From: Tetrahymena thermophila SB210
Taxonomy: Eukaryota; Ciliophora; Oligohymenophorea; Hymenostomatida; Tetrahymenidae
NCBI RefSeq assembly: GCF_000189635.1
Contig: NW_002476512.1
Location: forward strand, 682,001-746,000
DNA: 64,000 bases
Reading direction: 5' to 3'
Translations under genes and position numbers: made by a program
Shown here: positions 7,511 to 46,867 of the stretch, piece by piece
Numbering within the stretch: the stretch's first letter is position 1
Layout of the letters: each line of letters begins with the position of its first letter
Notes under the pieces: generated by a model
What the model was told of the DNA's origin: nothing
What the model saw: the letters and a program-made list of their open reading frames with translations, nothing else
The model's database searches: none

Positions 7511-8208
7511 CAGATTTGTTTGTTTTCAATTATTTATTTATTAATTAAATATTTATATACAAATTTTCAATCTTTTTTTTTTAATATGAAAAAAAGTTAA
7601 TCAAATAGTAATAAATATATTTGATTGTTTAAATTTTTCGTTTTATAAAATTGATTAGAATTTTTCTATTTATTGCAATTAATTCTGATAAATTATTTAC
7701 ATTTTTTAAAATTCAATTTTAATATCTTTAAATTTTTTAGAAGATTGATTACAATTTTTTGAAAGCAAAATAATTGTTCTTTTTTCTGGAATTATTCTAA
7801 TTAAATCTATGGATGATTTTATTTACAAAAAAAAATAAGCAAGAGTATCTTATATTTAAGTTAAAAATAAATTTTAAAATGCAAAGGATATCATTTAAAT
7901 AATATAGTTATGAAAGATATCACAAATCTAAAATATTCAAATAATGGCATATTATTTTTTTTAATTTTCAAGTTCTTATTTCTCAAAAATTAATAATATG
8001 GAATTAAAATATTACTACTCAATATTAAGATTATTTTAATGATTTTCAGTAAGTAAGTTAAAAAATTATTAAATGTATTATAATAAACATATTTTCATAG
8101 ATAAATAATCTTCATGTAAAGTTTTTAGTTCAAAAATAATAAATTTTACTAAGTTTTAAAATTTTAAAGCAAATAATTAATTAAGGATAAAAAATATATT
8201 AAAATGAT
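7511..8208. other. Spacer between P450 start and giant gene A, with duplicated 3' flank
   Basis: No gene is seen. From about 7958 to 8208 the sequence closely matches about 17380-17632, the 3' flank of paralogue B. The copied block that links A and B therefore extends past the stop codons into this spacer. The remainder is AT-rich and must hold the P450 promoter. Confidence 0.65.
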
Positions 8209-11200
8209 TCATTATTTTAAATTATTTACAAGCTTTCCTGTATTTAATTAATTATTTTTTTAGAATCTAAATTTATCTTGGAACCTTGGAGCTTAATCTT
8301 AATGTTAGCTAGACATTTCAGAATTAATAATAAAAATGTCATCTTATTTTCCACTTGTTACTTAATTGTTTTAATTTATGTCTTCTTGCTATTTAGATTG
8401 TTAATTAAATAAAGACTATTTATTTTAACTATCATAATTTTTATTTAGTAATAAATTAGTCGGAGACAATTAACTGTTGATTGGTTAAATTATGTTTCCA
8501 TTAGGAGTACTACATATTCTCTCAAATATGCTAATTTCTTGATGGTTAAGTATTGGAGTTTAACAGCAAAAATTGCTTTCTAATCTGTGTCTTGGATGAA
8601 TTAAATTAATATGTGTTTAATTTTCCTTTTAACCTTTTTAAAATATATAATAAATAAATTTAGTAAATTTAATTGATAAATTTTACTTATTGTTTAATTC
8701 ATTTTATTAATTGTATGTAAATCTATATAATATTTCAAATTATTTCTAATCTTTTTCCAATTTTAATAGACTTTCATAGAAACTTCAGTATGCCTTTATA
8801 TTTTATCAAACATTTTCTAACTTAGAATCTTTTAGATAACACAAAGAAAAGTTCTACCCAAAATATTTCGTTTAGTAAGTAACTAACGATATAAAATAAT
8901 CCAAATTACATAACTAATAAATGAAAAATGAAGTAAAATCATTATTATTTTAATTGCTGGTTGCTAATTATAGATACTTAGAACGATTTAAAAGCATATT
9001 AAAGCAATTAAATTAAATAATGAAAGCAATTCTAATTTTTTCATCCTTTAATTTAAGAAGGGGTCTGAGTTATTTAGATATGAGATATAAAGGACTATAA
9101 AGACAACGGCAACCATGTAAGAAAACTTTTAATTTCCATTAAAAAGAGTAAAGAATATTACTATCTATACCTTCAAGTACATCCTTACAAATTCCCAGTA
9201 ATATTTATTTTTCTTATATTCAATAAAAAAATAACCATAACGAAAGATTGTTGAAGATATATTTAAATTTTTGGATCTTTTACAAATTTAAACAAATATA
9301 ATTGCAGGAAAAACTATCCAAAAGACTAATAAAGGAATTCCGAAGTAATATTAAAACAGTTTATAGTCTGATTAATTGCATAAAATTTATAAATCTTCAG
9401 TAAAATATGAATTATCTCCAATTTTTCTACAAGTAAGAAATTTTGACAGTAGTCTCAAGGCGTCAGGTTGCATAAATGTGTAAAGCAAGTAAAAGACATT
9501 ATATCTCAGGTACTTTTTAAAATTAATTTTGTTAAATTTAATCTTCTCAACAAATATAATCAAACATATTATTATTGCTCCTAGAATTAGATTATAAATT
9601 TATGAAATTATAAGCTTAGTCTTTCCAGGTCCATTTTTATCTAGTGTTTCAGGTGATACTATACATAAAGCGTCAATAACAGTGAATGAAGAAGGCTAAG
9701 CTAAAGTGCTAGGAATAAAATTTATAGATAAAGAAATTTTATTTATTTGATCTACCAAAAATACTTAAAGTTGTAAATAACTCAATAAACATTTTATATA
9801 AAAAGTGTTTATAAGCTTAAATTAAGAAACAGAAATTGGAAGTAGATTCATCATTCTTATATAACTTATTATTAAAAATAGTAAAATATATATATATATA
9901 TTTATACAATAAAAACTCAAAAAAAAAAATAAATGATAAATAATCTTTAAATATTTTGTAAAGAAAAGAAAGCAAATTAGTTTTAAAATTTTAATTCTAT
10001 TCTGAAAAATTATCGAAATTTGTTGTCAAAAAAAATTTTAAGAAATCGAAAAATTAAAAAAAATAAATTAGTAGTAATTATTTCAAAAAAAAATGAATCT
10101 TACTAGCAAGATTAATATGTGTACAAGTTCGATACAATAAAAATAACTTGTAAGAAGAGGTAGATTAGTATTATGAGACTAGAAATTACGATTGCTACAA
10201 TCTGATAAGACATAGAACTGCATTCTTAGCAACTTGTACTTATGCTATTTTCACTATATCTCCTCTACCATATAGATCCAGAATAGTCACATTACTCGCA
10301 CAATGGACCCACATATCCTTAAACACATCCAAATAAATTATTAAATTCTTATTCATTACATGCTTCTTAATATTTAGTGCATTAAATGATTATATTAGAT
10401 GTATTAGACTGCCTCCAATACCCTTATTTCAATACAAAATTATCTTTATTGCATATTAAAGATTCCTCAGGGCACTTCTAGCACTCTATATCACTTACAT
10501 AACTATTTTATGAATACTCATACATAGAATACTACCCAATATTACATGGAACACAAATTCTTATTTAATCACTTAAAATATGATCTATCTCACCTCTTTA
10601 ACATTTTCTGAAATTAATTTACATTAAAATTTAAGATTACTATACATAATCAGCCAAGCTATATTCTAAAATTATTTATTATGTTGTAAAAGGTATAGAA
10701 TTAATTATTATACTCTAAAAAGTGAATGATTTAGTTGTTTCATTATATTAATTGTAATTTACACTTGATGCTCCAATAATCTAAATTGAACTTTTATTAA
10801 ATAAATCTAAATGAGCATTGAATTGTTATATTTCGTTTTCTATTACTTTTGGATAAAGTCCTTATTTAAAAGAATTTACTGAAAAATTTAGGTGTTTTCC
10901 TTCATTGTCCATAAAAAATAAATAAATATCCAAAGATCCTCCACTTTAAAAATCTTGAATATAGATCTATCTGTTGTTAGTAAAGTTGCTATTATCGAAC
11001 TTAAATTAGTTATTTACTTAAGAAAATAATTCTATCTACAATAAGCTTGGATAAGTTGCTATGTTTTCTCCATATATTTCTGCTTTATTATTAAAAATTT
11101 ATCCATCGTTAATTAAATTAAATTCTTACACACCTCTAATTCTGATACCACCACCAATCAAAGCACTATTAAATAATATTTTAGTATTTTAATCAAAAGA

Positions 11201-14200
11201 AATACACAGTATAGTATCGAATAGGATAGCTCCACCATTAGCATATGCTGAATTATTGCTAAATGTAGAGTTTTAGAAATAAATATTTCCTTTAATTTAA
11301 GTAATAAATATTGCTCCTCCTTCTAGTGCAGTGTTATTTTCAAACAAGCTATTTTAAATTATAATTTAAGTGGTTTGATTTAGCAGGATATTCATATTAT
11401 TAGATATGGAAACAATATTGTTGATGTCTACAAAAGAACTTTAAGTTTATATTAGAGGGATTTATTAAAAGCTTTCAACATAATTTGGAGCTTCAATTGG
11501 CTAATTCTGTATATTTTATTTTAGTAAAATATTTTTTAAAGTTAAAGTATCATTTTTTAAATATATAACCGTATTTTTATAATAATACTAGCTTTGAGAA
11601 TCTAAAAATTAAATATTTACATTTTATGTAATATTAGCATTAAATATGATTGTATTTTAACATCCATTTAATAGGATTAGTTATTATCCTTAAAATGATT
11701 CCTATACGTTGTTATAAATTTGAATATTTGATATTGAAAGATTTTGAACTGCTAAGAATTAAATTAAAGTATTTTATATGATATTCTCTTCTATAATCAA
11801 ATTATCAATTGAAACCTAATTAATCTCTTCAAACAGCAATAATGTTGTTATATTTTAAATAAACAATCTTCTAATTTCTAAGTTGTTAATATAAATTTCT
11901 GTGCAATTAAAAAAATAAATGAACTATTGATTTTAAAGAACACTTCCGATTTTTTAGTTTTTTTATGAGTCAAAAATATTTTCTAATACCAATTCATTTA
12001 TTACTATAGTTTTTTGGTTCTTAAAATTTAAATGTATTCCAGATATAGTTTGGTTTTAAATTATAGTATTTTCCATGGTTATTTCTTGTACACTATCACT
12101 AAAATTGTATTAACCTTATTCTAAAAATTAAAATTTAAAATTCTTTAGAAAGACCTTGTATTAAAAATAACTCAGGCTTTATAAATATAGCTAAAACTCT
12201 TAATTAGCTGAGGACTATAAAATCAAATTATTTTATTATTGATTTACTAAATTCAAGAAACTAAAGCTATCAATAACATTTATATAAATTGTTTATATGC
12301 TTGTTGTTGAAGATTGTAATAAAAGCATCTTTGCATAGAATTAGTAAGGATCTTAATAATCAATTACTTAAGAGCATTAATTAGGAAGTAAGCTTATAAA
12401 ATTTGAGACATCATACTAGAAATGGAATATATTACTAGTTGTAAATCCAATTATTTAGAGTTAATTTGTTGTTAAATTAACTTCACATTTCATAATTTAA
12501 GGATATGAAAGAGTTTATATATCTATTAAGGAGAAAAAATCATCATTGTTGTTATCATAAAGTGGTATATCCTAATTAATTTAATAAATATTTATTTTTT
12601 TCTGAAATTATAGCACTAATACTCTTTCATTTAAAATAAAAGTTTTTATTAATTGCTGTCTTCTCATATTATCTCTTATGTAGAATAAGAATTATTTTGT
12701 ACTCCTTAAATGTATATTTAACTAAGCAGAACTTTGTAGCAGAATATAATTTTTACTAACTTGTAAATAATTATAAATACTATGAGGAAACATAATATTA
12801 CAGCTAACAGATAGATCATTTATTTTTATTTAATAGATCTACTTAAAATTTTCAAAGTGAATAAATATCTCTGAATATAATTCATCAATAAAAACTTATC
12901 TTAATTCTAATTAGTTTGCTTATAGTACTTATTATGCTTTAGTTAATTGAACAAAATCTAAAATATTTATTGGATTTTATAATTAATTTTATAAAAATTA
13001 ATTTGTTTTAAATATTTATGCCTTACCATATTGATAAATAATCCAAATTTGATCTATGTACATAAAAATATTAATAATACTTTAATTTATTTGTTAAGTT
13101 ATTATCGTATACTACTAAATTTACTTATTAAATACTGATACTTTACCTGTTTAAAAGCCAAATACAACAAACTATTAATCAGAATTTGAGTAGAATTACT
13201 TTAAAATTTCAGTTTATGAAAATTAGACTTAAAAAAGAATTTTATTTAGTTAAAAAGAAAAATAAATAAAAGTTTGATTCTGTGTAATAAAAATATCATC
13301 ATCAATGAATTAACTAATCGATATATTGTTAACTTTGTAAGAAAAATTTTGATAGCTGATTTTTTCTATATCTAAATTTTAATAAACAAAAAAGTAATTT
13401 TAGAAATATATGATTATGTTTTTATAGTTTGTAGATTAATATAATCCTAAGACACTATCATTAAAATCAGTTTAATAGCTGTAATTTTAATATTTATAAT
13501 TATATAAGATATTATTTGAGCTTATAATTAAAATATTACTATTGAAGCTTCCTTAGTTAATGATGTACATTTAATTTTAAGGTTATTAAACTGAAATAAA
13601 TGTACGAACTACATCATTATAGTTTAAAATATAGGCTTTAAATTCATCATAAATAATAATATTTCCTGTCTAAAAATTATTTGATACACTTAGCTTAGTA
13701 TTATTCTAAAATTCATCAAAATTTAAAGGATTATCAACAGCTTAACTTTCATAAAAATACATTTAAATAAAACCTTATTCATCAGTTAAGCCTATTATAG
13801 ATAAAGCTTAATCATGAAATACACTTCTTACTTAATTAAGAGGGAAAAAAGCCTTTAAAGCAGGTAGTTAAGAAAGAGTAGTCAGGCTAAAAACAAATAT
13901 CTAGCCTTATGTAATGTTATCTGTATAGTATAAAAGATGGTTATAATCTCCTAAATAAAAGTTACCAATGAAATTTCCAAATAATTAAAACACCGCTTAT
14001 TATTGCTAAGAATTTCTATCTAAGATAAATCCATCTATTTAAAATATAAAAAAAATATTTTATATACGTTATTATGTTATTTTAAATATACTGCTTATTT
14101 ATAGCAAAAAATCTTTTTATTTATTAAAATATTTTATTCATTTAATTTAATTAATTGTTTATTGGAGTATGGTATAATAAGATGTAACAGTATGATAATT

Positions 14201-17200
14201 ACATTTCAAAAAATTTTTAATTTTAAAATAAAATAATAATAAATATTGTTCAAAATAAAATTATTGCTTACTTTGATTGGTAAAGATTACAATTTTTGAG
14301 CCAAAGATATTTAATTATAAAATTTGAGAATTTTGCACCAATATTTAATTTAATGATTATTCTGATATTGAGAATGATAATATTTAGGTTTTATAAATAT
14401 AAATATTTCTATAAACTTGATCTGCGAGTAAAAAGGATTAATCTTGAATTTCAATAGAGGAAAATGTTTTAATTACAAAAAAGCTTTAATTTTCTAAAAT
14501 TTTTATTTACTAAGGAGCTGTTTAACAAACCAAGTAGCTTAATAAAAAGACACATTAAGTTATTATATAACTATTTGATTCATAGATAATTTTGAGGTCT
14601 TTCAGTTACAAATCATATATGAATATATTGGAGCCATAAATATATATAATTTATTTTTCTTCTTAAAGATAATAATTCGAAATGTAAGAAAAGTTTGTCA
14701 AAATATTTTAAATTTTTAAATTTTATTAACAATTCAAAATAGCGAAATATTAACTTTTAAAGCATGTGATTAGCTTTTGTTATTTGCTATATTAAAACCC
14801 TTGGATATATTCTAACGAATTATCACCTTCATTATCTAATTTTATTTCTTCAACAAATAAATATTATGCTATATCAAAAACTAATAGAGTTTTTTTTACT
14901 ATAAAGATATACCCTATATCATAAATCTATTAAATATTTTGTATTTATGACGAGCTTTCTAATGTTTGATAAAATATCTTTCCTGGATTTGATATCAAAT
15001 TAGTTAAACCGACATTGCCACTAACATATCCTTCATAAACAATTTTATTTGATTCCTCATTGTAGTTCACTGAAAAATTTTGATTTCTATTAAAAGTGAA
15101 GCTATCTAAATTTTGAAAACCTGTTTATAAATTCCACTTAAGTGCTGAAATTAAAGTTAAGTAACTCAAGGGTAAAGTCATGTAAACTTTATAAACAACT
15201 TAGTTTAGATTATTTCTATATTTTAACACATTTATTATATTTGCTAACAAAACTTGGTTAGTAAGATATTATATCGAGTTTTATCCTGAAAGCATCGTAA
15301 ATAAGCAATATTTAAAAGGTAATGTTTAAATATTGCAATTGTATATAACAAAATAACGATATTTATTTTAGAAAGAGTCGTCAATAATAGTGAAAATATC
15401 TATCATATAAGAAGCTTATTACAAAGTAAATTAATCAATTACATTTAAGGAAGTATCTATGATTACCAATTATTACTATTGCTTATCAAACACTGTAATA
15501 TAATTAAATTTAGAATTATATTTAATATATTAAATATCCTAAAACTAAGTTAATTAATTGTTAGTTTATATTATTTGTTCAGTGTATAAATTTATTGTAA
15601 GTAATTATATTTAGTTTTTAAATATAGTTATTAAAAAGTTATCATCTATGAAAATATATTTCATAATATTCTAAAATTCATCTTAGCATTATTATAAAAT
15701 AGTCTGAATTTATTCATTTACAATATAAAGGCAATTCTTAAAAGCAATCAATATTTAGCTTTAGCTTTACTAAATAGTATATTTATCAATCAGCGTTTTA
15801 TCATTTGTCTAATATATTTATATTTACTAAAATTATGAATCTAGGATTTAGATAGAGTTTGAAAGTAATACAACAAGATACAAGCTTTTATAAACTATTA
15901 AATCTCTGCAAGTATCATTGATAAAATAAAAGTTTTTATAAAATTTCAAATTAAAAGAGCTAATACTATTCCAAATTACAATTTATCCTTCTTAAGAACA
16001 ACTATAAAGCAATTAAGTCAAAGGATCAAAATAAATTTTAGTAACATTTGACATATTTGATATTATTTGCTAAGAAAAAGGAGCTGCAATAGAAATATTA
16101 TTTAAATTATTTGGTAAATTGACATTTATTAACTAGAAGTCATAGCCAGCTACAAAAAGCTGTATTTAATTTTATTAGTTTACAATTAATTTAAGAAATT
16201 ATGGATAACTTATTTTAATGTAAATTTAAGACTATTAAACAAATTGCTAATTGATAGTTAAGCTTGATGAATATAATTTAAGAATGTTATCGGTAGTTAA
16301 AATAAGTAAATAAATTAAATTATTTTAAACTAAATATTAATAATCGATTATATTAGATATTGTCTAGATTGATGATAAATCTTTCTAATCAAATTATTAA
16401 ATTTAGATATAAGTGCTGAATTGGTATATTAAACAGTTAAAGTCTTAAAAGTTAATTTAGCTTACTTTAATTAAATTACTAGTCAGGTTTATTTTTGAGC
16501 AAGAGTGAAGAAGTTTTGAATAAGAATAGTAATTTAGGCTTTTTTGAATAAATATATAAATTGAATTTTAATCAGGAGTCATTAAAGCACTTAAAATATG
16601 AATATCTGCTGTGAAGCCGCATTCCATAAAATTTGAAATAGTCTATAAAGAAACTGTATTTAAATTGTTTTCAACAATTTCTAAAAGTTTTAAATTATTT
16701 TATTATGATAGCAACATAATATAAGAATCAAAAATATAAAACTTCTGATTATAAATTTAGATAGATATTGTGCTTATGAAGATAAAAGATTTATTATTAC
16801 TCCTAAAAATATTCAAAAATATATTTTGTTTATTTTAGCTAATTGAAGTAATTACTATCAAATCTTAAGAAATACTTGTCATTATGCTGGAAGATGATAC
16901 ATTTCCTTAAGTAATATTATATAGATTTAAGTAGAGCTAATTTTCTACTATTAATTATGAAACAGAATTATCTTAACTTACTATTATGAGCTTATTAAAG
17001 ATAAAGTCGCATAATAACACTTAGCTGTTAGTTTTTATAGACACTATAAACTATCCACTTTATGAATCAATAATATTAAGGAATCCATTATATTTTACTA
17101 AGTAGACTTATGATGAATATGCTATTATGTCTTATATTACTTAGTTATTGCTCAAAGTTGCTTGAGAAATGTAATTTTAAGTACAAATACTACTTTAAAC

Positions 17201-17287
17201 ACATTAATTATTAGACGTGTTTGCAATTTAATTATTATTACAAATACTTACACATTGCAATTATTGATTATCTTGCTTTAAAAACAT
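8209..17287 (-). CDS. Giant surface protein A (Cys-rich, beta-helix repeats, multi-pass membrane)
   Basis: Four exons (17287-14272, 14034-10104, 9864-8687, 8633-8209) splice to 8,550 nt, 2,849 residues, with all phases consistent. The first ~1,900 residues are long extracellular-type sequence (Asn, Ile, Ser, Tyr-rich). Polymorphic-membrane-protein-like repeats follow at about 1,900-1,960 (EGGAIFIT, NGGAILFD), suggesting a parallel beta-helix. A Cys-rich block at about 2,170-2,280 contains KQGYWRQSNTS and GCVQGYVGPLCEQC. About six membrane segments run from 2,285 to ~2,680, then a Gln/Asn-rich cytoplasmic tail. This architecture is common in ciliate genomes, where such genes are usually called only 'transmembrane protein'. 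The function is unknown; surface recognition or adhesion is inference. Unlike B and C, the protein starts inside the N-terminal Cys-rich region and has no visible signal peptide, so it may be 5'-truncated. Confidence 0.8.
9885..9902. repeat. (TA)n microsatellite inside an intron of gene A
   Basis: A pure TA run lies in the 239-nt intron 9865-10103. The matching intron of paralogue B (19283-19506) lacks this run and is 15 nt shorter overall. Confidence 0.8.
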
Positions 17288-17632
17288 TTTTTATTAACAA
17301 TATTAATACACACAATATATAAGAGGAAAAGTGAGGTCTGGCGATTGATTTTTTTAGACTAGCTTTTTAAAACAAATTTATAATTTTTAATTTTCAAGTT
17401 CTTATTTCTCAAAAATTTAAAATATGGAATTAAAGTATTGCAATTTAATATTAAGATTATTTTAATAGTTATCAGTAAATAAGTTAAAATATAGTAAAAT
17501 ATGTTATAATAAACACATTTTCATTTATAAATAATCTTTATCTAAAGTTTTTAGTTCAAAAATAATAAGTTTTACGAAGTAAAAAAATTTTAAAACAAAT
17601 AATTAAATTAGGATAAAGAAAATAATAATTTT
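17288..17632. other. Spacer between giant genes A and B
   Basis: Only 345 bp separate the first ATG of A from the stop of B. About 17380-17632 is a copy of the 3' flank of A (7958-8208). The remaining ~90 bp next to A has no signal-peptide exon that I can find. Promoter space for A is therefore unusually small. Confidence 0.65.
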
Positions 17633-20600
17633 TCATTATTTTTAATTATTTTCAAGCTGTCCTTTATTTAATTTATTAATTTTTTAGAATCTAAATTTAT
17701 CTTGGAACCTTGAAGCCTAATCTTAATAATAGCTAAACATTTCAGAATAAATCATAAAATTTTCATCTTATTTTTCACTTATTATTTCATTATTTTAATT
17801 TATGTCTTCTTGCTATTTAGATTGTTAGTAAAATAAAGACTATTTTTAGCTATCAGAATTTTTATGAACTAATAAATTATTGGGAGACAATTAACTGTTT
17901 ACTGGTTAAACTATGTTTATACTAGGAATATCACAAATTCCCTCAAATTTACTAATTTCTTGGTGTTAAAGTATAGGAGTTTAACAACAAAAATTGCTTT
18001 CTAATCTTTGTCTTGGATGAATTAAATTAATATGCGTTTAATTTTCCTTTTAACCTATTTAAAATATATTATAAATTTTCTAATTTTTAATGAATAAATT
18101 TTACTTATTGTTTAATTCATTTTATTTATTGTATTCAAATCAATAGTATATTTCAAATTATTTCTAATCTTTTTCCAATTTTAATAGACTTTCATGGAAA
18201 CTTCAGAATGCCTTAATATTTTATCAAACATGTTCTAGCTTAGAATCTTTTAGATAAAACAAAGAAAAGTTCTACCCAAAATATTTCTTTTAGTAAATAA
18301 CTAACGATATAAAATAATCCATATTACATAAATAATAAAAGAAAAGTGAAGTAAAATCATTATTATTTTAATTGCTGCTTGTTAATTATAAATGCTTAGA
18401 ATTATTTAAAATCCTATTAACATTATTAAATTAAATAACGAAAGCAATTCTATTTTTTTCATCTTTTTATTTAAGTAGGGGTCTGAGTTATTTAGATATG
18501 AGATATACATAACTATAAAGACAACAACAACCATGTAAGAAAATTTTTAATTTCCATTAAAAAGAGTAAAGAATATTACTATCAATACCTTCAAGTATAT
18601 TCTTACAAATTCCCAGTAATATTTATTTTTTTTATATTCAATAAAAAAATAACCATAACGAAAGATTGTTGAAGATATATTTAAATTTTTGGATCTTTTA
18701 CAAATCAGCACAAATATAATTGCAGGAAGAACTATCCAAAAGATTAGTAAAGGAATTCCTAAGTATTGTTAAAATAATTTATATTCAGATTAATTGCATT
18801 GAATTTATAAATCTTCAGTAAAATATGAATTATCTCCAATTTTTCTACAAGTAAGAAATTTTGAGAGCATTTTCAACGCATCAGGTTGCATAAATGTGTA
18901 AAGTAAGTAAAAGGCATTATATCTCAGGTAATTTTTAAAATTAATTTTGTTAAATTTAAACTTCTCAACAAAAATAATCAAACATATTATTATTACTCCT
19001 AGAATTAGATTATAAATTTATGAAATTATAAGCTTAGTCTTTCCAGGTCCATTATTATCTAGTGTCTCAGGCGATACTATACATAGAGTATCAATAATAG
19101 TGAATGAAGAAGGCTAAGCTAAAGTGTTAGGAATAAAATTTATAGATAAAGAAATTTTATTTATTTGATCTACCAAAATTACTTAAAGTTGTAAATAACT
19201 CAATAAACATTTTATATAAAAAATGTTTATTTACTTAAATTAAGAAACAGAAATTGGAAGCATATTCATCATTCTTATATAACTTATTATTAAAAATAGT
19301 AAAATATTTATTTATTCAATAAAATATTCAAAAAAAAAATAAATGAAAAATTAACTTTAAATATTTTTTAAAGAAAAGAAAACAAATTAGTTTTAAAATT
19401 TTAATTCTATAGTGAAAAATTATCCAAATTAACTGACAAGTAATTAAGAATTGGAAATTTTTTTTTAGTAAATTATTAGCAATTATTTCAAAAAAATAAA
19501 TCTTACTAGCAAGATTAATATGTGTACAAGTTCGATACTATAAAAATGACTTACAAGAAGAGGTAGATTAGTATTATGAGACTAGAAATTACTATTGCAA
19601 CAATCTGATAAGACATAGAACTGCATTCTTAGCAACTTGTACTTATACTATTCTCACTATATCTTTTCTACCATGTAGATCCAGAATAGTCACATTATTC
19701 ACACAATGGACCCACATATCCTTAAACACATCCAAATAAATTATTAAATTCTTATTCATTACATGCTTCTTAATATTTAGAGCATTAAATGATTATATTA
19801 GATGTATTAGACTGCCTCCAATACCCTTATTTCAATACAAAATTATCTTTATTACATATTAAAGATTCCTCAGGACATTTCTAGCACTGTATATCACTTA
19901 CATAACTATTTTATGAATACTCATACATAGAATACTCTCCAATATTACATGGATCACAAGTTCTTATTAAATCACTTAAAATATGATCTATCTCACCTCT
20001 TTAACACTTTCTAAAATTAATTTACATTAAAATTTAAGATTACTATACATAATCAGCCAAGTTATATTCTAAAATTATTTATTATGTTGTAAAAGGTATA
20101 GAATTAATTATTATACTCTAAAAAGAGAATGATTTAGTTATTTCATTATATTAATTGTAATTTACACTCTATGCTCCAATAATCTAAATTGAACTTTTAT
20201 TAAATAAATCTAAATGAGCATTGAATTGTTATATTTCGTTTTCTATTACTTTTGGATAAAGTCCTTATTTAAAAGAATTTACTGAAAAATTTAGGTGTTT
20301 TCCTTCATTGTCCATAAAAAATAAATAAATATCCAAAGATCCTCCACTTTAAAAGTCTTGAATATAGATCTATCTGTTGTTAGTAAAGTTGCTATTATCG
20401 AACACAAATTAATTATTTACTTAAGAAAATAATTCTATCTACAATAAGCTTGGATAAGTTGCTATGTTTTCTCCATATATTTCTGCTTTATTATTTGTGA
20501 TATTACCATCGTTAATTAGATTAAATTCTTACACACCTCTAATTCTGATACCACCACCAATCAAAGCACTATTAAATAATATTTTAGTATTTTAATCAAA

Positions 20601-21500
20601 AGAAATGCTCTGTATAGTATCAAATAGGATTGCTCCACCATTAGCATATGCTGAATTATTGCTAAACGAAGAGTTTTTGAAATAAATATTACCTTTATTT
20701 TAAGTAATAAATATTGCTCCACCTTCAAGTGCAGTGTTATTTTAAAACAAGCTGTTTTAAATTATAATTTCATTGGTTTGATTTAGCAGGATGTTCATAT
20801 TATTAGATATGGAAACCATATTTTTGATGTCTACAAAAGAACTTTAAGTTTATATTAGAGGAATTTATTAAAAGCTTTCAACAAAATTTGGAGTTTCAGT
20901 TGTCTAATTTTGTATATTTTATTTTAATTATATATTTTTTAGAATTAAAGTATCATTTTTTAAATATATAATCGTATTATTATAATAGTATTAGCTTTGA
21001 GCATTTAAAAACTAACTATTTACATTTTATGTAATATTAGCATTAAATATGATTGTATATTAACATCCATTTAATTGGATTAGCTATTTTCCTAAAAATG
21101 ATTCCTATGCATTATTTTATATTTGAATATTTGATATTGAAAGATTTTGAATGGCTAAGAATTAAATTAAAGAATTTTATATGATATTCTCTTCTATAAT
21201 CAAGTTATCAATTGAAATTTAATTAATTTCTTCAAACAACAATAAAGTTGTTAAATTTTAAATGTGTAAATTTCTAATTTTTAAGTTGTAAATATAAATT
21301 TCAGTACAATTAAAAAAATGAACGAAATAGTCATTTTAAAATCTACTTTCAAATCTTTAGTTTTGCTTTGAGTCAAATATATTTTCTAATACCAAATTAT
21401 TAATTACTATTATTTTTTGATTCTTAAAATTTAATTATATTCCAGAAATAGATTGATTTTAAATTATAGTATTTTCCATGGTTATTTATTGAATACTGTC
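17380..21500. repeat. 4.1-kb segmental copy shared with 7958-12115
   Basis: By eye, the 3' flank, last two exons and most of the second exon of B match A over about 4.1 kb at high identity. Most size differences fall in introns (239 versus 224 nt, 53 versus 50 nt). Similarity stops abruptly near 21500 in B and 12115 in A. Beyond that point the two genes are only distant paralogues. Confidence 0.8.
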
Positions 21501-24500
21501 AAATAAATATTTTCGATATTAATATTTTGTATATTCTCAAAAAAGGCCATTATTTCAAAATTCGATTCTTTCACAGTAACATTTTTTAAGACTATTTAAT
21601 TTATTCTTGAAAATATTAAAAACTGTTAAATGTTTTTTATATTTGCTTGGAATATCTATAAATTGTAGATTATTACTTTTTAACAATCTTGAAAGTCCAA
21701 AAAATTTTGAAAATCTTAATCTAAATTTTAATTTGAACTATTTTATGTTTTGTTTGGAAAGTTGTCACTAACATTCGTTAAAATTAAATTATTAATAACT
21801 ATTAAATTTTTTTAGGAAAAACTAATTGATACATTTAAAATGTTTTATGATTCAATCTTTAAATCCTAAATGTATATATTTTTTGTATAATTACTAAACT
21901 GATAAATTCCTTACTCTGTAAAATTCAAATCAAAATTTTTAAGGTATGCATCACTTTAGATACTTTAAAAACTTTATTAATTTATATCAAAAGCTGATTT
22001 TTAGTCAAAAGATTAAAGAATCATAGAAGTTAGTTATTAATTAATTGAGTTAATAGGAGTAAAATCAAATAAATTTAGATAAAGTAACTACTATTGCTAC
22101 ATGTTGATATTTGAATCTTTTAAATCATTTAAATTTTTTAAAAACTAAACACTTGTAGAACCTTCTACAACTGAGCTACACCATTAAGAAGAAAAAGTAT
22201 AACTTGCTAGCCAATATTTTTTTTCAAAGATATTTGTACTTGAAAATCCTACAAAATTAAGAAGAGTGTTAGATGAATCATAATTAGAATATATAATCAC
22301 TGGAAATTAAGTGCTTAATGAATCAACAAGTTCTATTGTATTTTAATTATCTATTAAAAAGTAAATATCTATTCTATTTGTAAAAGTAATTAAATAAACA
22401 GAGTCATTTAGAACTTTTAAGTCTGTTATTTAATCTAATCTGTTGTTACATCTTATTTATTATTAGAAAAAAAGATTATCTCTTCTGTGAACATTTATTT
22501 ATGCTGTTGAATACAAAATTACATATTATGTAGTTATCATTATTTTGCTTATTTCATCTGTTGGAAAAGACATGTTTTATAAAATAGCATTTGTTATCAT
22601 ATTAATTACAATGCATCTTTTTTATTTTACAAATTAAACAAAGTAGCGGTTATATTATTCATCCAAAATAATTAAATTGAGTTATACTTAATTTTAGTTC
22701 TTTGTTACAGTTTGTAAATTAAAACTTGAGCTTGGTAATGAAAACTAACTAAAATTTTATATTTAGAAAATGTTAATTGAACCATCTTTCTAAGAGAACC
22801 AAAATTAAGTTGATATTGACTATATATTTACAACAGGTTAGATATATTAAAGACTCAAAATAAATGATGCCCTTTTAGTTAAATTATAGGTAATAATTTA
22901 ACCCATAGAAGTCCCAAGTATTATCAAGTCATTTACTAATTAAAAGCTTTTTACAACTTAATTAGCTGATAAGGTTAAATTATAAAGCAATAAATTATTT
23001 TAAAAGTCATAATGTATTAATTAATTATCAGCAGTGAAGAAAATATTATCTGTAATAAAACTGTGTTTATTATTTTAATCTGTTTTTATGATATATTAAT
23101 ATTAAATTGGCTAGACTATTTAATAAATTTTTTGAGTTAAAAGATTATAGTTTAATTACACTACTAAATTTATATTATAAACAATTAATGAATTTGTTAA
23201 ATAATCTATTGAAAAACCTGATGCTTTGTTATTTTGAAATTAATCAATAGGTAAAAAATTATAGCTTAAACCTAATGGATAGTTAAAAACTTCTATATTA
23301 CCCATTTGGTTTACAATAATCAGCATTTAGCAAGACTCTTCATAAGCAAAATCAACAATTTGTACTGAAGGATTAAAAGAAAGAAATAGTGGGTTCTTAG
23401 ATTTTAAGTTCGTTAAATCAAATACCTAAATTCCACGAGTTACATAATTACTAAAAAACAAAAGATGATTTTACTAAGCAATGTAAATACTTTTTATAAT
23501 ATTTCCACCTTAGCTACTTAAAAATGTGCTGACATAATTCTATGTCACTCTATCATATATGTATCCATCTAATTTATATTAAAAATAAAAATATTTAAAT
23601 TATAAAAAATTACTATTGTAATCGAATAGTGCTTATTCAAAACCTAATAATATCAATAAACAAAACTCTAAATATTTAATTGATTATTATTAGTTTTACA
23701 ACTTAATGAAATAATTTTTTAATTTACTTCCTATGGTTAAAACTGCGATGTAATTTCCATAAAAGTTAAACTCAATGATATCTTGATAAAGTTGATCCAA
23801 AGAAAATATAAATTAGCCTAAAATTGTATACACTTATATTGTTTGCTTATAGATATAAAATCTGTTATTTATTTAGTCAAAATTTAAAAAAAATCCTAGT
23901 TCTATTCCTGTAACTTAGAATTATTTGATTATAGTAAAATCTAGACTATTCAAAAATATTAGCTAATAGTTTCCTTATTTGCAGATAATTAATCCATCAG
24001 GGAATATACATTAAGCAATTAAATTATTTTAAGTATTAGAGGGAATTATAATAAATTCATTTTGTAAAGCTAAATTAAATATACTTAATTTTGTTCCATA
24101 AATAAAGATTATGTTTTAATCCTCATTTATATAATAGTTGCTTATAATCCCAAAATTATTAAGTTTAAAGACTTAAGGAGTGGTATAATTATAAGATTTT
24201 ACTAAAAATGACTGACTTTTATAACATGAAATTAATCGAAGATTATTAGAGATCTTAAAACCTTAAACGTATTCTATCTAATTTTAACTTATATCATCAA
24301 AAGAAATGTCTTCAATATAAGTATTCAAAATTAAATCAAATTCCTTAATATTTTTTTTTACAACAAATATTCTATTTAGTTGATAACTTTATACTACTTA
24401 CTATATATTGTTTGTATCATTAGGAGGATTTTAGTAAATTAAATTTGCATATTTAGAAGTAGATGAACTTATTCCTGTAAATCCACTTTTACTTCCTGTG

Positions 24501-28809: not shown

Positions 28810-31800
28810 TCATATATTACCATAGTTTTCAATATTATTTTCTAATTTTTTTGTTTTATTTTCAAATTAATTTATTTAATTATCATTTTTAAACAAATTT
28901 TCCATTTTTTAGAATTCCATTTGTTTAAATTACATGCTTATTTATTTTTAATTATATTCACAATGCTCTTAAATTTCATTATTAAGCTCTTCTATCTTAC
29001 TTTCTTATAAACTTATTTCTTGAATGCAATCTATTTGGTTATTTTAGATTACTTTTAAAGCTTAATTTTTTTATTATTTCTATTAGGGAATCTACTTATT
29101 GAGATTTTCAAATTAATTTAAGAAACTCTTAACTTTTTTAGTACTAAAAACAATACAATTAAAGCTACTTAATGCATTTTAACTAAATTAATTAGATATT
29201 TCCTAACTCAGTTTTAGATATTTCAAAGTTTAGTCATTTTAGTTTATAGTAACTATTAATAAAATTTAATTAAATATAATAATTATACAATAATTTACTT
29301 TATAAATCTTCTGCTCCATTTTTTTCCACAATATCAACTGCTTTTGAGTTAATAAGCTATTTAATATTTTTCTTAATTTTTTTCCAGTTTTTAAAAGTCT
29401 TAAATTGAATTTGAGGTTTGTACTTGTATTTACTGGATATTTTTGAAGCAATATAAAAATATATTTTTTTCAATTTGTCATTATTTTATATAAATCTGTT
29501 ATATATAATTGTACCTACTATGTATATGATAAAAGCAGAATGGATTATAATGTATATGTATTCTAAAAATCCATTTTAGAAGGTAATATTTAAGTCCTTA
29601 ATTAAAATTACTAGCATAAGGGTGATGTACGAGTATTATTCTAATCTTACCATATTTGGATTTATGAAAGGACTTGCTTTTTTTAGAGATGTTAGATATA
29701 AAGCTATGCAAAGAAGTATGATCATATGAGACTCATATAAGTTTTATTTGTATAAAGTATAGAATACTACTATCCCTGTTTTAAAATAGATTCTAATAAA
29801 CTCCCAATAAAAATACTTTTCATTGTACTCTAAATAATAGAACCCAAATATGAAAACACTAGAGTAATACATTAATTTTTTCTATCTTTTAAACAATAGA
29901 TAATGAATAAAAACAGGTATTAATGTCCAAAATATCAAAAGAGGAATCCCAGCATAGTATTAATATATTTTATAGCTTTCATTTTAGCACTCATAAAGAA
30001 GATCAGTAGAAATATAACTTTTACTTCCTATAGACTTGCATGTTAAAAATTATGTAATAGAACTTATTTAATCTGATTAGAAGAAGATATATAAAAAGTT
30101 TAATGCTGTATATGCTTATATGAATTTTATTTTTAAGGATTTGATTCTCATTGCTATTAAAAAAAATATTAAAGTAGCAATTAAATAGGCTATAGGCTAT
30201 AAGATGATTAAAAACATTTTTATTTTACCAATTCCATAGTTATCTATAATTTTTGATGGAATTATACAGACTATATTCACTATTATATGAGAATTAGGTT
30301 TTCCAAAAGCATCAGAAATATAGAATATGCTCTAAGGTAGCCATTAAAGCTCAAAGTCTACAACTATCGAATGCATTTAGATGTAGGTTAAAAGGCATTT
30401 TATGTAAAAGCTGTTTAGTTTGCTCATCTAAGTAGCAGAAATAGGTAAAATATTAGATAATCTTAGGTATTGTTAAGTTAAATATATTTGAAAATTCTTC
30501 ATAAATGCGTAGACCTATATAGTAATATAAAAAAATAGTCCAAGGCCTGATAATGCTAAAACTACTATTTGCGTTTAAGTAGAGCTACAACTAAAGCATT
30601 TTTTTAAAAAACCATAGGCACTATATCTCTTACTCCAAACTAAACCAGAGTAATCACACTATTCACAAATTGGGCCTAAATATCCATCTAAACATCCAAA
30701 TTTGTTAGATTAATTGCTTTCATCACAAGAGTTATTTTAAGTATCACATTAGAGTATATTCAGAGAGCTTATTTACTATTCTCTCCAATAGCCTGGCTTT
30801 AATATCAATTGGTTTTTATCACAAGAATCTGCTTCGCTAGGACACTATTAAATTTTTTTTTATTTGTTATTAAATTAATATTATTTTATGAAAATCATTT
30901 TAAAAAATAAAAAAATTTAAAAAGTACTTTTTAACATTCTGTGGTTTCGTTTTTTTAAGGATGTTAAATCGAATAATATCCTCCAGTGCATGATTAACAT
31001 ATTTAAATTTATTTTGAAAATTATTTATAAATTTCTCCTTAAATACATTATCTTAATTGTATGTTTAACTGAATAATATTTTTTTTTTAATACTTGCTAA
31101 TAAAGTAAATCAAATTTATTTGCTAATTACTTTCAGGGTTTGCATTTATGTAAACATTTTCAAATCTAAAAAATTTATTAACACTATCAAACTGATTATA
31201 GTTAATCTATTACTATCCTGTTAACTATACTTAAGTAGAATCTTGGCTTTCTAATTGGAATAACCAAGAAGTTATTTCATCAATTATTATTTATGGGTAA
31301 AGTTTATTCATAACATCATCTGGTGTAAAATTTATTTTTCTATTTTCTGAATCAACATAAGAAATTAATAGGTTAGTAGAACTTCCACTCTAATAATTAT
31401 ACATCTCTACTATCCCATATTTAGTAATATCATTTTAAGTTTTTGTAAAGATTAAATTTTCTTTTTTAGTACCTGAAATAATTTCAATATCAACTGGGAA
31501 GGTTCCAATATTATTCCCAAATATCTTTGCTTAATTTTATGAAACTGAGTTCTAGCTAATATTTTGTAATGCATTTTGCCCTATAACTCTAATACCTCCA
31601 CCAATTAAAGCTTGGTTATTAATTATTTTAGTATTCGCTTGTATAAATATTTGAGCAACATTTTCCGCATAAATGGCTCCTCCACTAGCTCTTGCAATGT
31701 TATATTAAAAGACTGAGTTACTAATTAAAATTTAATTGGAAATTTATATGAACTATATTGATCCACCTAATAAATTTGTATTATTTTAAAACTTAGAGTT

Positions 31801-34800
31801 AATTATTGAAACAGAACTAGAAGAAGTGACTTTCATATTCATTTAATTGTTTATATAGGTAAAGTTATCAATTTTCAAGTTTGAAATTTAGAGAAAGTAT
31901 TAATTAAAATCTTAATTTTTATCAATATAAGATAAACTATTATTTGCAGAGTAAATCGTATTTAACTAGACTTCATCATTTTTAAATTGAATTAGCTAAT
32001 TACCTTGCTAGTAAGAATTAACAATATTTAAAATTTAATAATCACTACAATTTATTGATTATAAATTATTTATATAAGTATTCATACTACCTTGAATTTA
32101 TAAAATTTGCTTAGGAATTTTAAAATCTAACTTTTGTGCCTTATTATTGTATATTTAAATGTTCTAAATTGTCAAATTTTATATGTTTTAAAATTATGCC
32201 ATAATATTGAATTCAGATTCATACACTGTCAAATTCTTAATTAAAATATTTTCGATTTCAGAAAAAAATATTAGCTATTGAATATCTTTTATAATTGTGT
32301 TAGATATTTATAAGTCATAAATAATTACGTTTTGACAGTCATAAAAATTCAGAAAACTTGAATAATTTTACTGTTCTAAATTTCTAAAATTAAATTTATC
32401 ATTTTGATAGTCTGTTTAAGATAATAACCTTGTTGTAACTTAATCAGTAATATTGTTAATTATTAAGCCTTTTATTACAACCAAGGATTTTTATGAAAAG
32501 TTTATTTATATTTTTTATATGCTTTAAGATGTTATTTAAATATTCTGCAAAAAAATTTTATTTGTTTATTCGCTAAATTAAAATAATCCTTATTATTCAA
32601 AGTTAAATTCAAAGTTTTTGAGATAAGCATCACTTTAAATATTTTTAAAAGTTTAAGTGTTAATATTAAATGGAGATAATAAATTATAAGGCTATAAGAT
32701 TATTGATACCTATGCTTAGTTAATAAAGTTCACTGATGTAAAATCAAAAAGGCTCAGGTAAATTAATTACTATTATTACAGTTTTATATTACCTGCTTAT
32801 AATAAATTAATATTTTTTATTATATCTATATTTGTGGAACCTTTCACAACTGAGCTGCATTTTGGTGAAGTAGTTATATAGCTTATTATCCAATACTTCA
32901 TTTCATAAATATTGTTATTTGAAAAACCAATTATATTTAATAATGTTGAAATGGGATCATAATTTGAATTTATTATAATTGGAAAGTTCATGCTTATTGT
33001 ATCAATTAGTTAAACATTTAACTTATCCTAGAAAAAATAGTAAATTTACAATTTGTCAATAAATGAAATTATGAAAATTTAATCAGACAAAATTTTTAGA
33101 TCCGTTATTTGATCAAGCAAGCTATTACATTTTATTTGATACTAAAATAAGAGACTTTCTCTTTTGTGTATATTCAATTAAGATGTTGAGTATAGAATTA
33201 AATAATTATCTGTTATCATAATTTAACTAATTTAATCAGTAGGAAATGATAAATTTTTTATTATTAAATTTGTAGTCATATCAATTACAGTGCATCTTTT
33301 TTAGTTACTTAACTAAACAAAATAGTGATTTTAATCTTCATCTAAAAAGATGAGATTTAATTCATTATTTGAATTTGGTTGAATTAAATTAATTATATTT
33401 AAATTAGAAATAGGTTATGAAAGAGCATTAAAGTTAATTTTTAAGTAAATATTTAAAGATCCATCTCTTTAAGCAAACTAATAACTTGAGGATGTTTATA
33501 AAATGTTCATTATTGGTGATTGAGATGGCAGTTTTATGGCAAACATACTCTTTTTACTTATAATATATGAGATAATTGTACCCTAAGAAGTTCCTAATAA
33601 AATTTGATCATTTTACACTAATTAGCTTTTAATAAATTATGGAAAAGGTATAATGAAGGTAAAAAGGACTATATTATTAACATAATCATAGTGAACTACT
33701 TAATTATCTATTGTGAGAAAAATGTAGTCTGTAATGAATTATTTTATTCTATAACCCTTTACAATATAGTTACTATTATTACTTAAATACATTTACTCAA
33801 AATTTTTATTAAAATAGACAATAAAATAGTCTAGAAAGTATATTAAAACAACTGACTAATCTTAAGTTTAATAAATTCCTTTTATCTAATCTTAAAAGTA
33901 TGATTGATAAGACAAAGAATAATTTTGATAAGTGTAAACTATATTTTTTGAATCTAATAAAATAAATTTTTTATTATTCAGTTAATTAATTTTTAATATA
34001 GTTTAGTATTAAACTGGATCAACATTTCTTTACAGTTTCTAAACAATTAAAGCATAATTTACTAAGACAGCTTTATTGTTATTGTAAACAACTAATGAAT
34101 TAGATACATAATCAACAGAAAAACCTATAGGGTGGCTGTTTTCAAAGTCATCAATCGTTAAAATATTATAAGTAATACTTTGCTAATAATTAAAAGCTTG
34201 AATATTACCTTAATAATTAAGAATAATAAACATTTATGTTGAATCATCAAAAAAAAGATCAGCAATTCTTACAAATACATTAAATGTAAGCTATAAAAAG
34301 CCTTTTAATACAAGTTATGTTAGATCATATACTGAAATTTATCCAACTGTAACATAATCGGTATAAAAAAACAGCTAATTGTATTGAGGAACATAAATGC
34401 TTTTCTAAAAGACACCAACTTAGTTACTTAAAAAATTAGATAGAAAAGCCTATGAAGCTCTATCATAGAAGTATCCATCTTTTTAATTAATTTAAATAAA
34501 ATATAAGAAAAACATGTTATTTATTATTTAAATAAAATCAATTGTAGATTATTATTATTTCTTTTCGGGTTTGTTTTTATTTTAAACAACAAAAATTAAA
34601 TTATTTTATTTGTGAAATTAAAAAAATAATTTCTTTAAAAATAAAATAAAAATGACAATTAAAAAAATTAAATCTTACTTCCAGCTGTCAAAATAGCAAT
34701 TTTATCTGAACAAAATTTGAATTCTATAATAAGTTATTTTTATTGATTCATTGAATATAGATATTATCCTTGAAGAGTATAGACTTAAATAGACTATTTA

Positions 34801-37800
34801 TATAAATACAGTTTATTATTTTATTAATCAAAAGTTAAATTAAAGCCTATTTCTATTCCAGAAGCATCAAATTTTTTAAGGATACTATAATCTTAACTAT
34901 TCAAAAATACTAAAGAATAGTCTCCATATTTACAAATTATTAAGCCTGTAGGGAAAACGCATTAGTAAATCAATTAATTTTGTTATGTAAAAGATATAAT
35001 AATTTACTCTTGTTGTAATTTTGGATCAAATCTGCTTAGTTTAGTTCCATAAATGTATAGATAGTTTGAGCTTTCACAAAAGTAATAATTTTATATGATC
35101 CCAAAATTATTTAGCTTATAGATTTCCGAATTATCATCCTCATATGATTTAATAAGAAATTAATAACTCTTAAATAGCATGATAATTCTTAAACTATTTA
35201 CAACTTAAAAACCTTAGACATACTCAATAGTATTTTAATTACTTTCATCAAATGTAACTTCATCAACATAGCTATTTAAAACTAAATCGTATTCAATTAT
35301 TGTTTTTTTAATTATAAAAATTCTATTTAACTAATAGCTTAGAGCTACTTACTATATTAAACTATTATCGTTTGAATTGCTTTGATAAATATTTTTAGTA
35401 TAGAGAGTATTAGTAGGATTTAATGCAGTAAATCCACTCAGAGTACCAATGCTGATCATCCTATTTTAGTTATTTTACTCTATAAATTTAATTTAACTTC
35501 CTTCAGTGTTATAAATGAACTATTAGAGTATGCCAACATTTTGATTACTATTCCATTTAATAGTAGAGAGAAAAGATGTGTTAAGATTATTAGAAGCTAT
35601 TGTTAGATAAAATATTAGTTAATTATTATAATTTATTTGACAGTTAATGCCATAAATTCCTAAAATATTGGTCATGTTATAAATTTATTAAAACATTTAA
35701 CTTTGTTTATTAATTGCTGCCACAAAGTAATTATCAGTTAAAGATTTAATATTTGGTTTATATATTATAAAATACCATATTTATTGATTTAAATCTGTAT
35801 ATGGTTTCACAGATATAAGCTATTAAATTTATTTTAATTAAAATTAGATAATAGTATTAAATTAATCATCAGTGATAAATAATATTTGCGATGCAAAATC
35901 AAAGTATATAATTTAATTATTGTTAGGTTAACTTTCATCTAAATAAAAAATTTAAATGCTAGAGGCATTTGTTATTCCTTAGTTTTATAAAACTAGTTAT
36001 TTATTTACCAAATCTAATTAATAAGCATTAATAAACTTCTATCCATATGTGTAAATTATTTATTAAGAAGAAATTACAGAATTAACTATGCTTAGTACCA
36101 TGCATTAATTAATTAAAATTGTTAAGCTAATATCAATAACTTTTAAGCATGAATCTAAATAAATTAATATATAATTTTAATTTGTGTAGAGAGAGTATTA
36201 TTAAATAAATTATTTATCATTTTGAGTAAGTATCATCTTTTGATTTTCGCTTGCAATATCAAAAAGAACTATTGATTTTTGTAAAACTATAGCAAAGATT
36301 TTATTTTAGAGCAGTACGAAGTCTCTACAGCTATCATTAATAAAAGTGTATTCTCTCAAATACTTGTAACTATATTATGTTATTATATTCCAAACTGCCA
36401 AAACTCCATCCAAGGATGACACATAGAGTAAGGATTGATTATTTTCATAAAATATTTTACTAATTTAACCTTTATTAGATTAGTAAGATTACTAGAAGCT
36501 TTTTGCTACAAACCCTACTTAGATATCAGAATTATTAATTTTAATCATCTATAAATCATTACTAATGACAAAAAACAAATTCTAAATTTTATTAAATTAA
36601 GAAGGATAAACTAATTATTAAGGATTATTAATTAAAACAGGCAATTTTTATTAAAGAATAAAATCCATAGATTCATTTTGATCTGACGATTGAAAGCTAA
36701 AAACTTAATTTTAGTTTGTCAATATAAATATTTAAATATAGGAGGGAATATTATTAATCAGTATATCTAATATTTATGGAGTTCCATCAATTTATATGCT
36801 AGCAATATTAGTGGATATTTAATTCAAATCTTTAATAACTATTTATGTCATAAGTTAAATAATTAATAAATCTGAAATATTTTATCTTTGATAGATAATT
36901 ATTTTCTAAATTTACTATTGGAATTGAATTTAATTGCAATTTTGTTTTTATTCATCAACAATATAAAATACTTATTAACTTTGAAAAAAGAAAATATACT
37001 ATTTGTTTGTCGAAGAGAATATCAAATTTTAGATTATTGAGTTTTTTTATTAAATACAAAGGACATTCGCAATAACTTCTAATATTTAAATTTTTGACAT
37101 ATCAGAAATATTCATATTGATTTAAGATATCTTAGCGTTTGAGTTATCTTAAATAAAAATTAGATTTGAAAAGAAATACATCTTTTAGTTATTACTAGAT
37201 AATTAATAGGCAATAAATTCATTTTATTACTATGATGTACTTATTAAAGTAATGTAATTTATATTTTTTTATATATCTTAAGTAACAATATAATAATAAT
37301 CATCCTAGATGTGATATATTTAGCTAATCGACGTTAATTTACCAACAGTGATTAAATTTAACTATTAAAATGAATTTCTTTCTAGATTCCATAAATTTAT
37401 AGAATAGTCTTACAAGACAGCAAATAAATTGCCATTTACAACATAAAGTGATAAAATGCTATTCGTGTAGTTAAATCTCAAAATAAACTCACCGCTCGTT
37501 TTGTTAATATAATTAAGAAAATTATCGTATTAAATAATAAAAGAATTATTATCATAATAAAGGATATTTTATACTTTAGTATTATTACTAAAATCTGGAA
37601 GTGTAAAAAAATTCTCTGGACATTAGTTCAATATATCGCAAGTATTTTAAAGCTGGTTAGTAGAATAATAATCATCACAAATAGCTTAACACTATCCTTA
37701 ATCTGAGCTTGAATTTTTTTAAAGGTATAAGTATTGCCCACACTATTAACTTACACAAGTGTTTTGAGATTAATTTAGTAAGTACCCCTAATCACACTAC

Positions 37801-37919
37801 GTACAAATGGAATTCACTTGCGTACCGACTTATTCACATTTTAAGCATGCGTTTTAGCATTATGAAATTATTTTTTGCATATTAAATGCAAAGAATAATA
37901 CTTTTAAGATACCTATCAT
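28810..37919 (-). CDS. Giant surface protein C (Cys-rich, beta-helix repeats, multi-pass membrane, coiled-coil tail)
   Basis: Four exons (37919-34679, 34478-30928, 30844-29299, 29252-28810) splice to 8,781 nt, 2,926 residues, with all phases consistent. The N-terminus (MIGILKVLFFAFNMQKIISQ) is a probable signal peptide, followed by Cys pairs such as CQNACLKCEQ and CTQCDQGY. GGAIYAEN-type beta-helix repeats lie near residue 2,013. The Cys-rich block has CPSEADSC, LKPGYWRE and GPICEQCDYSG. The first membrane helix is near 2,360, and others include AGIPLLIFWTLIPVFIHYLL. The tail after the last intron is Gln/Glu/Lys-rich and coiled-coil-like (LQESKIEELNNEIQE), unlike the tails of A and B. The protein should sit at the cell surface with a large ectodomain. 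Ligand and role are unknown. It shares one intron position with A and B but lacks their intron between the first two membrane helices. Confidence 0.85.
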
Positions 37920-45640: not shown

Positions 45641-46829
45641 GATATATTTAAATGATGTTTCTTTTTAAACTTTTACTCTATTTAATTTTATTAAATAAAT
45701 ATCAATTAGTTTTGATTAATAATAACAGTATTTGTTTTTATATCAAATTTAATAATAAAACAATAACATTTATTTTCAACACACATCAATCAATTTTCTT
45801 TTTTTTGCATCAATTTTAAAAAAGGTTGGAACTTACGTAATAATTAAATAGATATTATAAATTAAATGATTATAAAAGAATTCCATTTACTTTTTTATTC
45901 ATTATGAAATATAATTTTATGTTTTTAATCAATAAAATTATTGAAGAAATCTCATCTCCCCTCAAATTCTAAATAAAGAAGTGATCAAATTTCTAGTCAA
46001 TATATATTCAAATATAATTTTTATATTTTTAAATATATTCCTGATAACAATAGTAATTTTTTAGGATTAAGTTTATTAAATAGTAATGTAAATTTAATTT
46101 ATTATTTTAAAACTATAATTTTTTATGTAAATTTTTGATTTAAATTATATCATTTGGACCTAGATTTCATTTATTTATGTTATCAATTGTGATACTAAAA
46201 TTTTATATCTTTAAATAATTTGTTAGATTAATAAGGATATAAGACCAAGAATATGATTAAAATCTTTTACTATTTCTAAAAATAAAAATAAATAAGAATT
46301 ATAAAACATAATATTTTTATTTGAAAGCTAATAAATATCTAAAAAAAAGCAAAAATAAAAACTTATATTTAAAAATAAAAAATAGTTAATGATTTGAAAG
46401 TAGAAAGTAATTATTTTACATATTAGTCATTATTACTTCTTAAAAACTATATAAAATTCTAAAAAAAAACATATAATGAATATCTATTTTAAAAAATATG
46501 AATTCATGATTTAGTGTTTTTTAATTATCTAAAATATCAAAAAATATTAATAATTTATTTTGAATTAAATTACTATTAAACCTTGTTCTTAAATAATTTA
46601 TTTAATTATAATTGGTTTTACAATAATTTATTCATCCATAATTTCCTATGTTATCTTTATTTACAAAATAGTTTAATTAATTTTAAATTAATAAATCATA
46701 CCTTAAATCAAAAATGTGGTAATTAAATTAATACAAATCATGACAACTGTACTATTTTATAAAGCCAATTTGAAAATTATTTACATATAAGAATTTTACT
46801 TATGAAACTAATCAGTTTATGCTTTCATT

Positions 46830-46832
46830 TTT

Positions 46833-46863
<31 letters not shown>

Positions 46864-46867
46864 TTTT
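46830..46867. repeat. (TTTA)n microsatellite
   Basis: About nine perfect ATTT units in tandem, the longest simple repeat in the window. It lies in the spacer between the two lipases. Confidence 0.9.

Follow-up and report, generated by a model that had tools for sequence, protein, structure and literature searches.

Three giant genes in tandem

In a 64,000-nucleotide stretch of DNA (hereafter the window), three giant genes of one family lie side by side, and the middle one, B, resembles its neighbour C in its 5' half and its neighbour A in its 3' half. The first-pass annotation had read this as the trace of ectopic recombination or gene conversion that swaps the membrane half beneath different ectodomains. 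The questions addressed here are whether B is such a mosaic, which gene gave and which received, and whether the result looks like a working swap.

The window has a G+C content of 21.5% and yields long open reading frames with the ciliate code (code 6), and none of 150 codons with table 11. Genome searches were carried out on an assembly of 101 Mb in 445 contigs, in which the window is C60:682001-746000. The telomere repeat of T. thermophila is given as C4A2 in the available text of PMC5182062, and contig C4 carries C4A2 arrays, among the matches listed, from base 5 and, on the opposite strand, from base 465,612 on. On the strength of these arrays the assembly looks macronuclear and of the Tetrahymena type. 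Genes C, B and A are arranged head to tail on the minus strand, and the parts needed below are the following.

29234..37919, minus strand: gene C, the nearest relative of the B front half found in the genome
21502..26965, minus strand: front half of B, open in code 6, C-clade sequence
17378..21501, minus strand: back half and 3' flank of B, of the A type
8130..17316, minus strand: gene A as present, without about 54 N-terminal residues that a fourth gene, D, keeps
7952..12098, minus strand: the stretch of A that matches the back half of B; A is its owner, as A matches D along its whole length

The layout deduced from the translations starts with a signal peptide, a Cys-rich start and a long propeller-like part, and continues with a beta-helix with GGAI-type repeats, a Cys-rich block, membrane helices and a tail. 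Pfam provides only sub-threshold propeller (WD40-type) and Chlam_PMP matches on A, B and C. A weak model of the A beta-helix part (mean pLDDT 57) retrieves mostly parallel beta-helix enzymes and tailspikes from the PDB, with no match at E 0.001 or below. Five hydrophobic segments of the A membrane part pass a simple test; the model of this domain (pLDDT 39) was too poor for use, and no sequence relative of it was found in the PDB up to E 1. Rfam gave no match over 7800-38400 of the window. At least 120 genome matches to the membrane domain were counted (the best 120 of 414 candidates), many of them in tandem clusters. The matches at C45:375-1346 and C74:10546-11517 have equal score and frame length, and perhaps reflect a duplicated contig end. 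In a partial coverage of the literature, no paper was found on this giant-gene family or on hybrids in ciliates.

Two other tandem pairs were also observed in the window: an aspartyl protease pair at 55923-60392 (88.6% nucleotide identity, Pfam Asp), where in addition 52294-53206 matches 57753-58592 at 80.7%, and a lipase-like pair at 44071-48715 (Abhydro_lipase, 69-72% nucleotide identity).

The back half of B is of the A type

When the window is compared with itself by blastn, A 7952-12098 and B 17378-21501 align at 90.8% nucleotide identity over 4147 columns. The shared block comprises the rest of the beta-helix, the Cys-rich block, the membrane helices, the tail and the 3' flank. The two copies had been described as nearly identical; their proteins agree at 85-90%. 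The front half of B, with the signal peptide, the Cys-rich start, the propeller-like part and the start of the beta-helix, runs for its first 1820 codons without a stop. It matches C at about 65% of nucleotides (blastn, B 21524-23059 and 23066-26786) and at 52%, 49% and 48% of amino acids in three aligned pieces, against 27-29% to A and D.

The passage from one affinity to the other is abrupt. Counted per block of 100 columns, A-B matches number 35-52 upstream, 62 in the join block and 80-100 inside, and drop from 83 to 43 at the far end. In windows of 150 columns, the 12 ahead of the join show 20-35% amino-acid identity between A and B, and the 8 beyond it show 79-97%, while B-C identity goes from 41-64% before the join to 24-43% after it; a single window, at the join, had too few columns in common. 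Identity between A and B is therefore not uniform along the gene, and the sharp step anticipated near 21,500 is present. The intron said to be shared by B and C fits as well, the B-C alignment skipping 49 B codons at about 23.57-23.72 kb.

A separate difference was noticed in the front half of B, which is without 75 propeller-like codons present in C (at 23059-23066), with the frame open across the gap. By the window counts, A and D also have these codons.

Gene D gives the direction of transfer

Apart from B, the closest relative of the A back half is gene D, which lies on contig C118. The amino-acid identity of D to A is 48% for the front, 52% for the middle and 54% for the membrane part, and 39-61% in all 20 windows of 150 columns with enough columns. 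Since D matches A evenly, both halves of A are original to it, which makes B the hybrid. Trees point the same way. Six front halves give (A,D)(B,C), with B joined to C at 100/100, seven back halves give ((A,B),D),C, with B joined to A at 100/99, and the two trees conflict with strong support.

Genome searches, restricted to the best-scored candidates, gave no closer source elsewhere. Above 30% amino-acid identity, the B front half has C only and the A front half has D only. For the back half, a single match outside A and B exceeds 130 bases, and it lies on C118. With the join itself as query, the genome gave, beside A, two weak matches of 124 bases (73%) on C298 and C201, which cover the A-type start.

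The mosaic first proposed is thus borne out by nucleotides, amino-acid windows and trees alike, and the proposal of an ectopic exchange between tandem relatives was right. Gene D adds the direction: it is virtually certain that B is a hybrid and that A-type sequence went into B. Copying from B into A was considered and is ruled out by the co-linearity of A and D.

A join out of frame and out of register

The junction of the two halves of B, called here join a, is located as follows.

21496..21524, minus strand: join a, from the B front half to the A-type back half, placed by the letters, the reading frames and the alignment of B5 with B3a

C-type beta-helix stands before join a in one frame and A-type sequence after it in another. 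In addition, B5 1717-1829 aligns to B3a 5-116 with 34% amino-acid identity, and about 113 residues of predicted beta-helix are thus present twice around the join. Join a is out of register by these ~113 residues because the A-type part starts at a rung that B has already passed. A single open frame across the join is absent without splicing. Seventeen GT...AG pairs could bridge the two frames; a GTA donor is present in four, of which the shortest measures 74 bases. In DNA of 78% AT, such candidate introns are likely to occur by chance. The idea of a working membrane-half swap does not hold at this point, the join being out of frame and out of register within the beta-helix. Nor do the ends of the tract have the in-register homology of an interlocus conversion: join a is off register, and the other end lies at the repeat arm described below.

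Both copies of the back half remained under constraint

The A-B comparison gives a dS of 0.19, with dN/dS of 0.27 in exon 2 (665 codons) and 0.39 in exon 3 (544 codons). When D serves as outgroup, 33 amino-acid changes are placed on the B lineage and 32 on that of A; the other 78 of the 143 differing sites are left unassigned. At 0.093 substitutions per site and lineage since the A-B split, the number of TGA codons expected without constraint is 6.4 in the A front half, 6.8 in the A back half, 6.4 in the B back half and 10.9 in the B front half. The observed numbers are 0, 0, 1 (in the tail) and 0, respectively. The low dN/dS and the deficit of TGA show that both back halves kept coding for most of the time since the split, and a young join a would therefore account more easily for the broken frame there. 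Two features of the tract deserve coordinates.

17752..17754, minus strand: TGA ending the B tail; A continues for 66 further residues, to a stop at 8130
20016..20354, minus strand: patch of B without silent difference from A (10613-10951), likely a later gene conversion

Divergence is unevenly spread along the tract. The first 95 codons after join a have its highest dS, 0.48, which the edge of an old conversion could also give. At the other extreme, 107 consecutive informative codons are silently identical (shuffle P 0.0017, and 0.0028 when the first 95 codons are left out), even if neither the minimum nor the maximum of silent differences per 60 codons is significant in the same test (P 0.21 and 0.46). 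The run suggests that the patch at 20016-20354 arose by later A-B gene conversion. Gene conversion, as first invoked, may thus retain a place inside the tract, but it leaves the tract ends unexplained.

A repeat arm stands where A lost its start

The lower edge of the A-like tract, near 17,380 (junction b), had been taken for the 3' flank of B. It is a flank indeed, and it borders on a repeat arm and on the point where A is truncated.

17317..17383, minus strand: half of a palindromic MITE-like dispersed repeat, 67 bp, outer end ...CCTCTTATAT
17317..17524, minus strand: possible substitute start of A, with an ATG at 17524 and a frame open through the B 3' flank and the arm

The outer end of the arm adjoins the coding sequence of A, and the side of the palindrome centre adjoins the flank of B. 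In the alignment with B, C and D, the homology of A starts at a Cys codon adjoining the arm, and the residues missing from A include the signal peptide and five of the cysteines after it. The putative substitute start has a peak hydropathy of 1.47, compared with 2.29-2.38 for the signal peptides of B, C and D.

This repeat is presumably to be likened to palindromic MITEs, being a short dispersed element with terminal inverted repeats. A search for it gave 38 matches, namely the query, the flank of A itself and 36 that overlap the arm, some partially. Among 20 repeat loci, five carry arms head to head as near-palindromes (L059, L060, L061, L062 and L064), L071 has two arms around an intervening stretch, and 13 have one arm only (e.g. 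L066, L067 and L068). Direct repeats of 6 bp outside the arms, candidate target-site duplications, were seen by eye at L059 and L064 and are not evident at L060. The exact 25-base arm end occurs in 19 copies at 17 loci, two of which have it paired; this count misses any partner whose end differs.

Two other observations concern these elements. The single arms end near the palindrome centre, as if cut there. At L063 (contig C6, 12690-13658), two arms lie about 0.97 kb apart in the order opposite to that of the palindromes, perhaps within a longer related element.

The arm at 17317-17383 is identical to L066 at 67 of 67 positions, and L065 and L067 also have no substitution, nor does the second, short arm match of L071; one substitution separates it from L064 and L070, two or three from L068 and L069, and 5-11 from the rest. 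An arm dating back to the A-B split should have gathered 5.0-6.9 substitutions (the probability of seeing none is 0.001-0.007), with neutral divergence set at 0.149 (3' flank), 0.186 (silent sites) or 0.206 (intron); the test assumes neutral evolution of the arm and, by using the closest copies, favours a young age. Because of its complete identity to L066, the arm is probably younger than the A-B divergence (dS 0.19), and so probably is junction b. A tidy transfer of the membrane half is again contradicted, the far end of the tract being a probably younger, repeat-associated junction at which A has no signal peptide.

Other close pairs are even along the gene

Among 30 membrane-domain loci, four pairs share at least 80% of nucleotides, A-B and three others, all tandem, which constitute the family control. 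The C17 pair has 89.4% identity in the front and 91.0% in the back, and the C167 pair 87.6% and 86.1% (parts of 3.3-3.9 kb). In the C39 pair the values are 94.2% and 89.2%, the two pieces being separated by a stretch that does not align and differs in length. All three are even along the gene, and none shows a front/back step like that of A-B. The membrane-half swap proposed as a pattern is consequently absent from the three other close tandem pairs of these 30 loci.

A proposed history of deletions and its alternatives

The reading preferred, with moderate confidence, is that B became a hybrid through deletions from a full-length twin of A, and that A lost its head later. No simpler history accounts for frame, register, constraint and the probable youth of junction b together. 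The front half of B would be native and of the C clade, its back half and 3' flank coming from a tandem twin of A. A would have been duplicated in full, giving the order C-B-A'-A, and the twins would have diverged to a dS of about 0.19, both coding and with some gene conversion between them. A deletion would then have fused the middle of the B beta-helix to an earlier, non-equivalent point of the twin's beta-helix, with loss of frame. Afterwards, a palindromic MITE-like repeat may have been inserted in the N-terminal coding part of A, and a break near the palindrome centre may have removed the other half of the repeat, the A promoter and the signal peptide, together with the DNA up to the 3' flank of the twin. 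Full-length twins do exist in the family, as the three other even pairs demonstrate, and support this history. Against it count the absence of a second A-type front half among the best-scored candidates, the high silent divergence just after join a, which an old conversion edge could also give, and the candidate introns, with which join a might be old and spliced.

An old, spliced join belongs to the next best account, a rather doubtful one, in which a break in B was repaired long ago by copying the back half and flank of A. On the same account, B would since have been a working chimeric receptor spliced across the join, and only the loss of the A start would be recent, a corollary to be held just as tentatively. 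The low dN/dS in the A-type half of B, the conversion patch inside the tract, the highest silent divergence at the tract edge and the four possible GTA...AG introns joining both frames, the shortest of 74 bases, speak for such a conversion. A homologous conversion, however, does not end out of frame and ~113 residues out of register, the introns are of a kind likely by chance at 78% AT, and the three other close pairs are without such a tract.

An assembly artefact, with allelic or paralogous pieces misjoined at 21,500 or 17,383, is improbable. Two 4-kb copies lying about 9.4 kb apart do invite such an error, but the join at 21,500 is at an edge of homology, outside any long identical stretch, and the contig is 1.6 Mb long. 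The 9% difference between the copies shows that they are not one collapsed sequence, which rules out an assembly collapse.

Still less credible is a programmed somatic joining, in which the germline would hold fuller copies and the working nucleus would join the halves or delete the DNA between them: the macronuclear look of the assembly (the long C4A2 arrays of contig C4), the 13 of 20 repeat loci that are single-armed and the assembly of the T. thermophila MTA/MTB genes in this manner (PMC3608545, available text) speak for it, but the 9% A-B divergence indicates a germline duplication, the join breaks the frame, and the best-scored candidates included no further back half beyond A, B and D and no second copy of either front half or of join a. 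It is just as hard to believe that the half repeat is the edge of an eliminated stretch. The same low standing applies to the wider idea of a developmental joining of varied ectodomains to shared membrane halves, with half-palindromes as cut edges and with a start of A made from the neighbour's 3' flank and the arm.

Relation to known systems and significance

Taken as a chimeric gene formed by ectopic recombination, B changes its nearest relative abruptly along its length, and donor and recipient are tandem neighbours of one family. A precedent is provided by the LRR genes of Tetrahymena, which undergo ectopic recombination at non-equivalent repeats (PMC6564038, available text). As here, non-equivalent repeat positions recombine, and in the LRR genes the number of repeat units changes; these genes, however, shuffle 90-bp exons, whereas B combines long halves from two clades, joined without a common frame, and has beside it a gene that is cut short at a repeat.

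The mating-type genes offer a second comparison, in which a shared membrane exon is joined, by a programmed process, to an N-terminal segment that varies (PMC3608545, available text). MTA and MTB have, like the present family, a common Cys-rich and transmembrane C-terminal part under differing N-terminal parts, and a germline tandem array of partial copies. Their joining is nevertheless programmed and completes genes, according to the same text, while the halves of A and B are 9% diverged and meet out of frame, and no sign of a programmed process was found at the A/B locus; the likeness noted is one of layout.

Junction b, finally, can be compared with breakage at palindromes, which are described as break-prone in the available text of PMC7999016. 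In such breakage too, the junction falls in the middle of an inverted repeat or close to it, and one arm is left. At junction b the end product alone is seen, and the breakage is deduced from it. Altogether, the A/B locus resembles known kinds of gene scrambling more than an orderly exchange of domains.

For annotation, a practical caution follows, in that gene prediction may yield odd models of both B and A, fused or cut short. For the biology of the family, the locus is a well-resolved case of hybrid formation in a large tandem family of surface-type ciliate genes, in which the half that moved, the direction, the break and the cost to the neighbour can be read. The half-palindrome at the start of A, together with the single arms at 13 of 20 loci, makes it testable whether palindromic elements cause deletions, be it in the germline or in macronuclear development.
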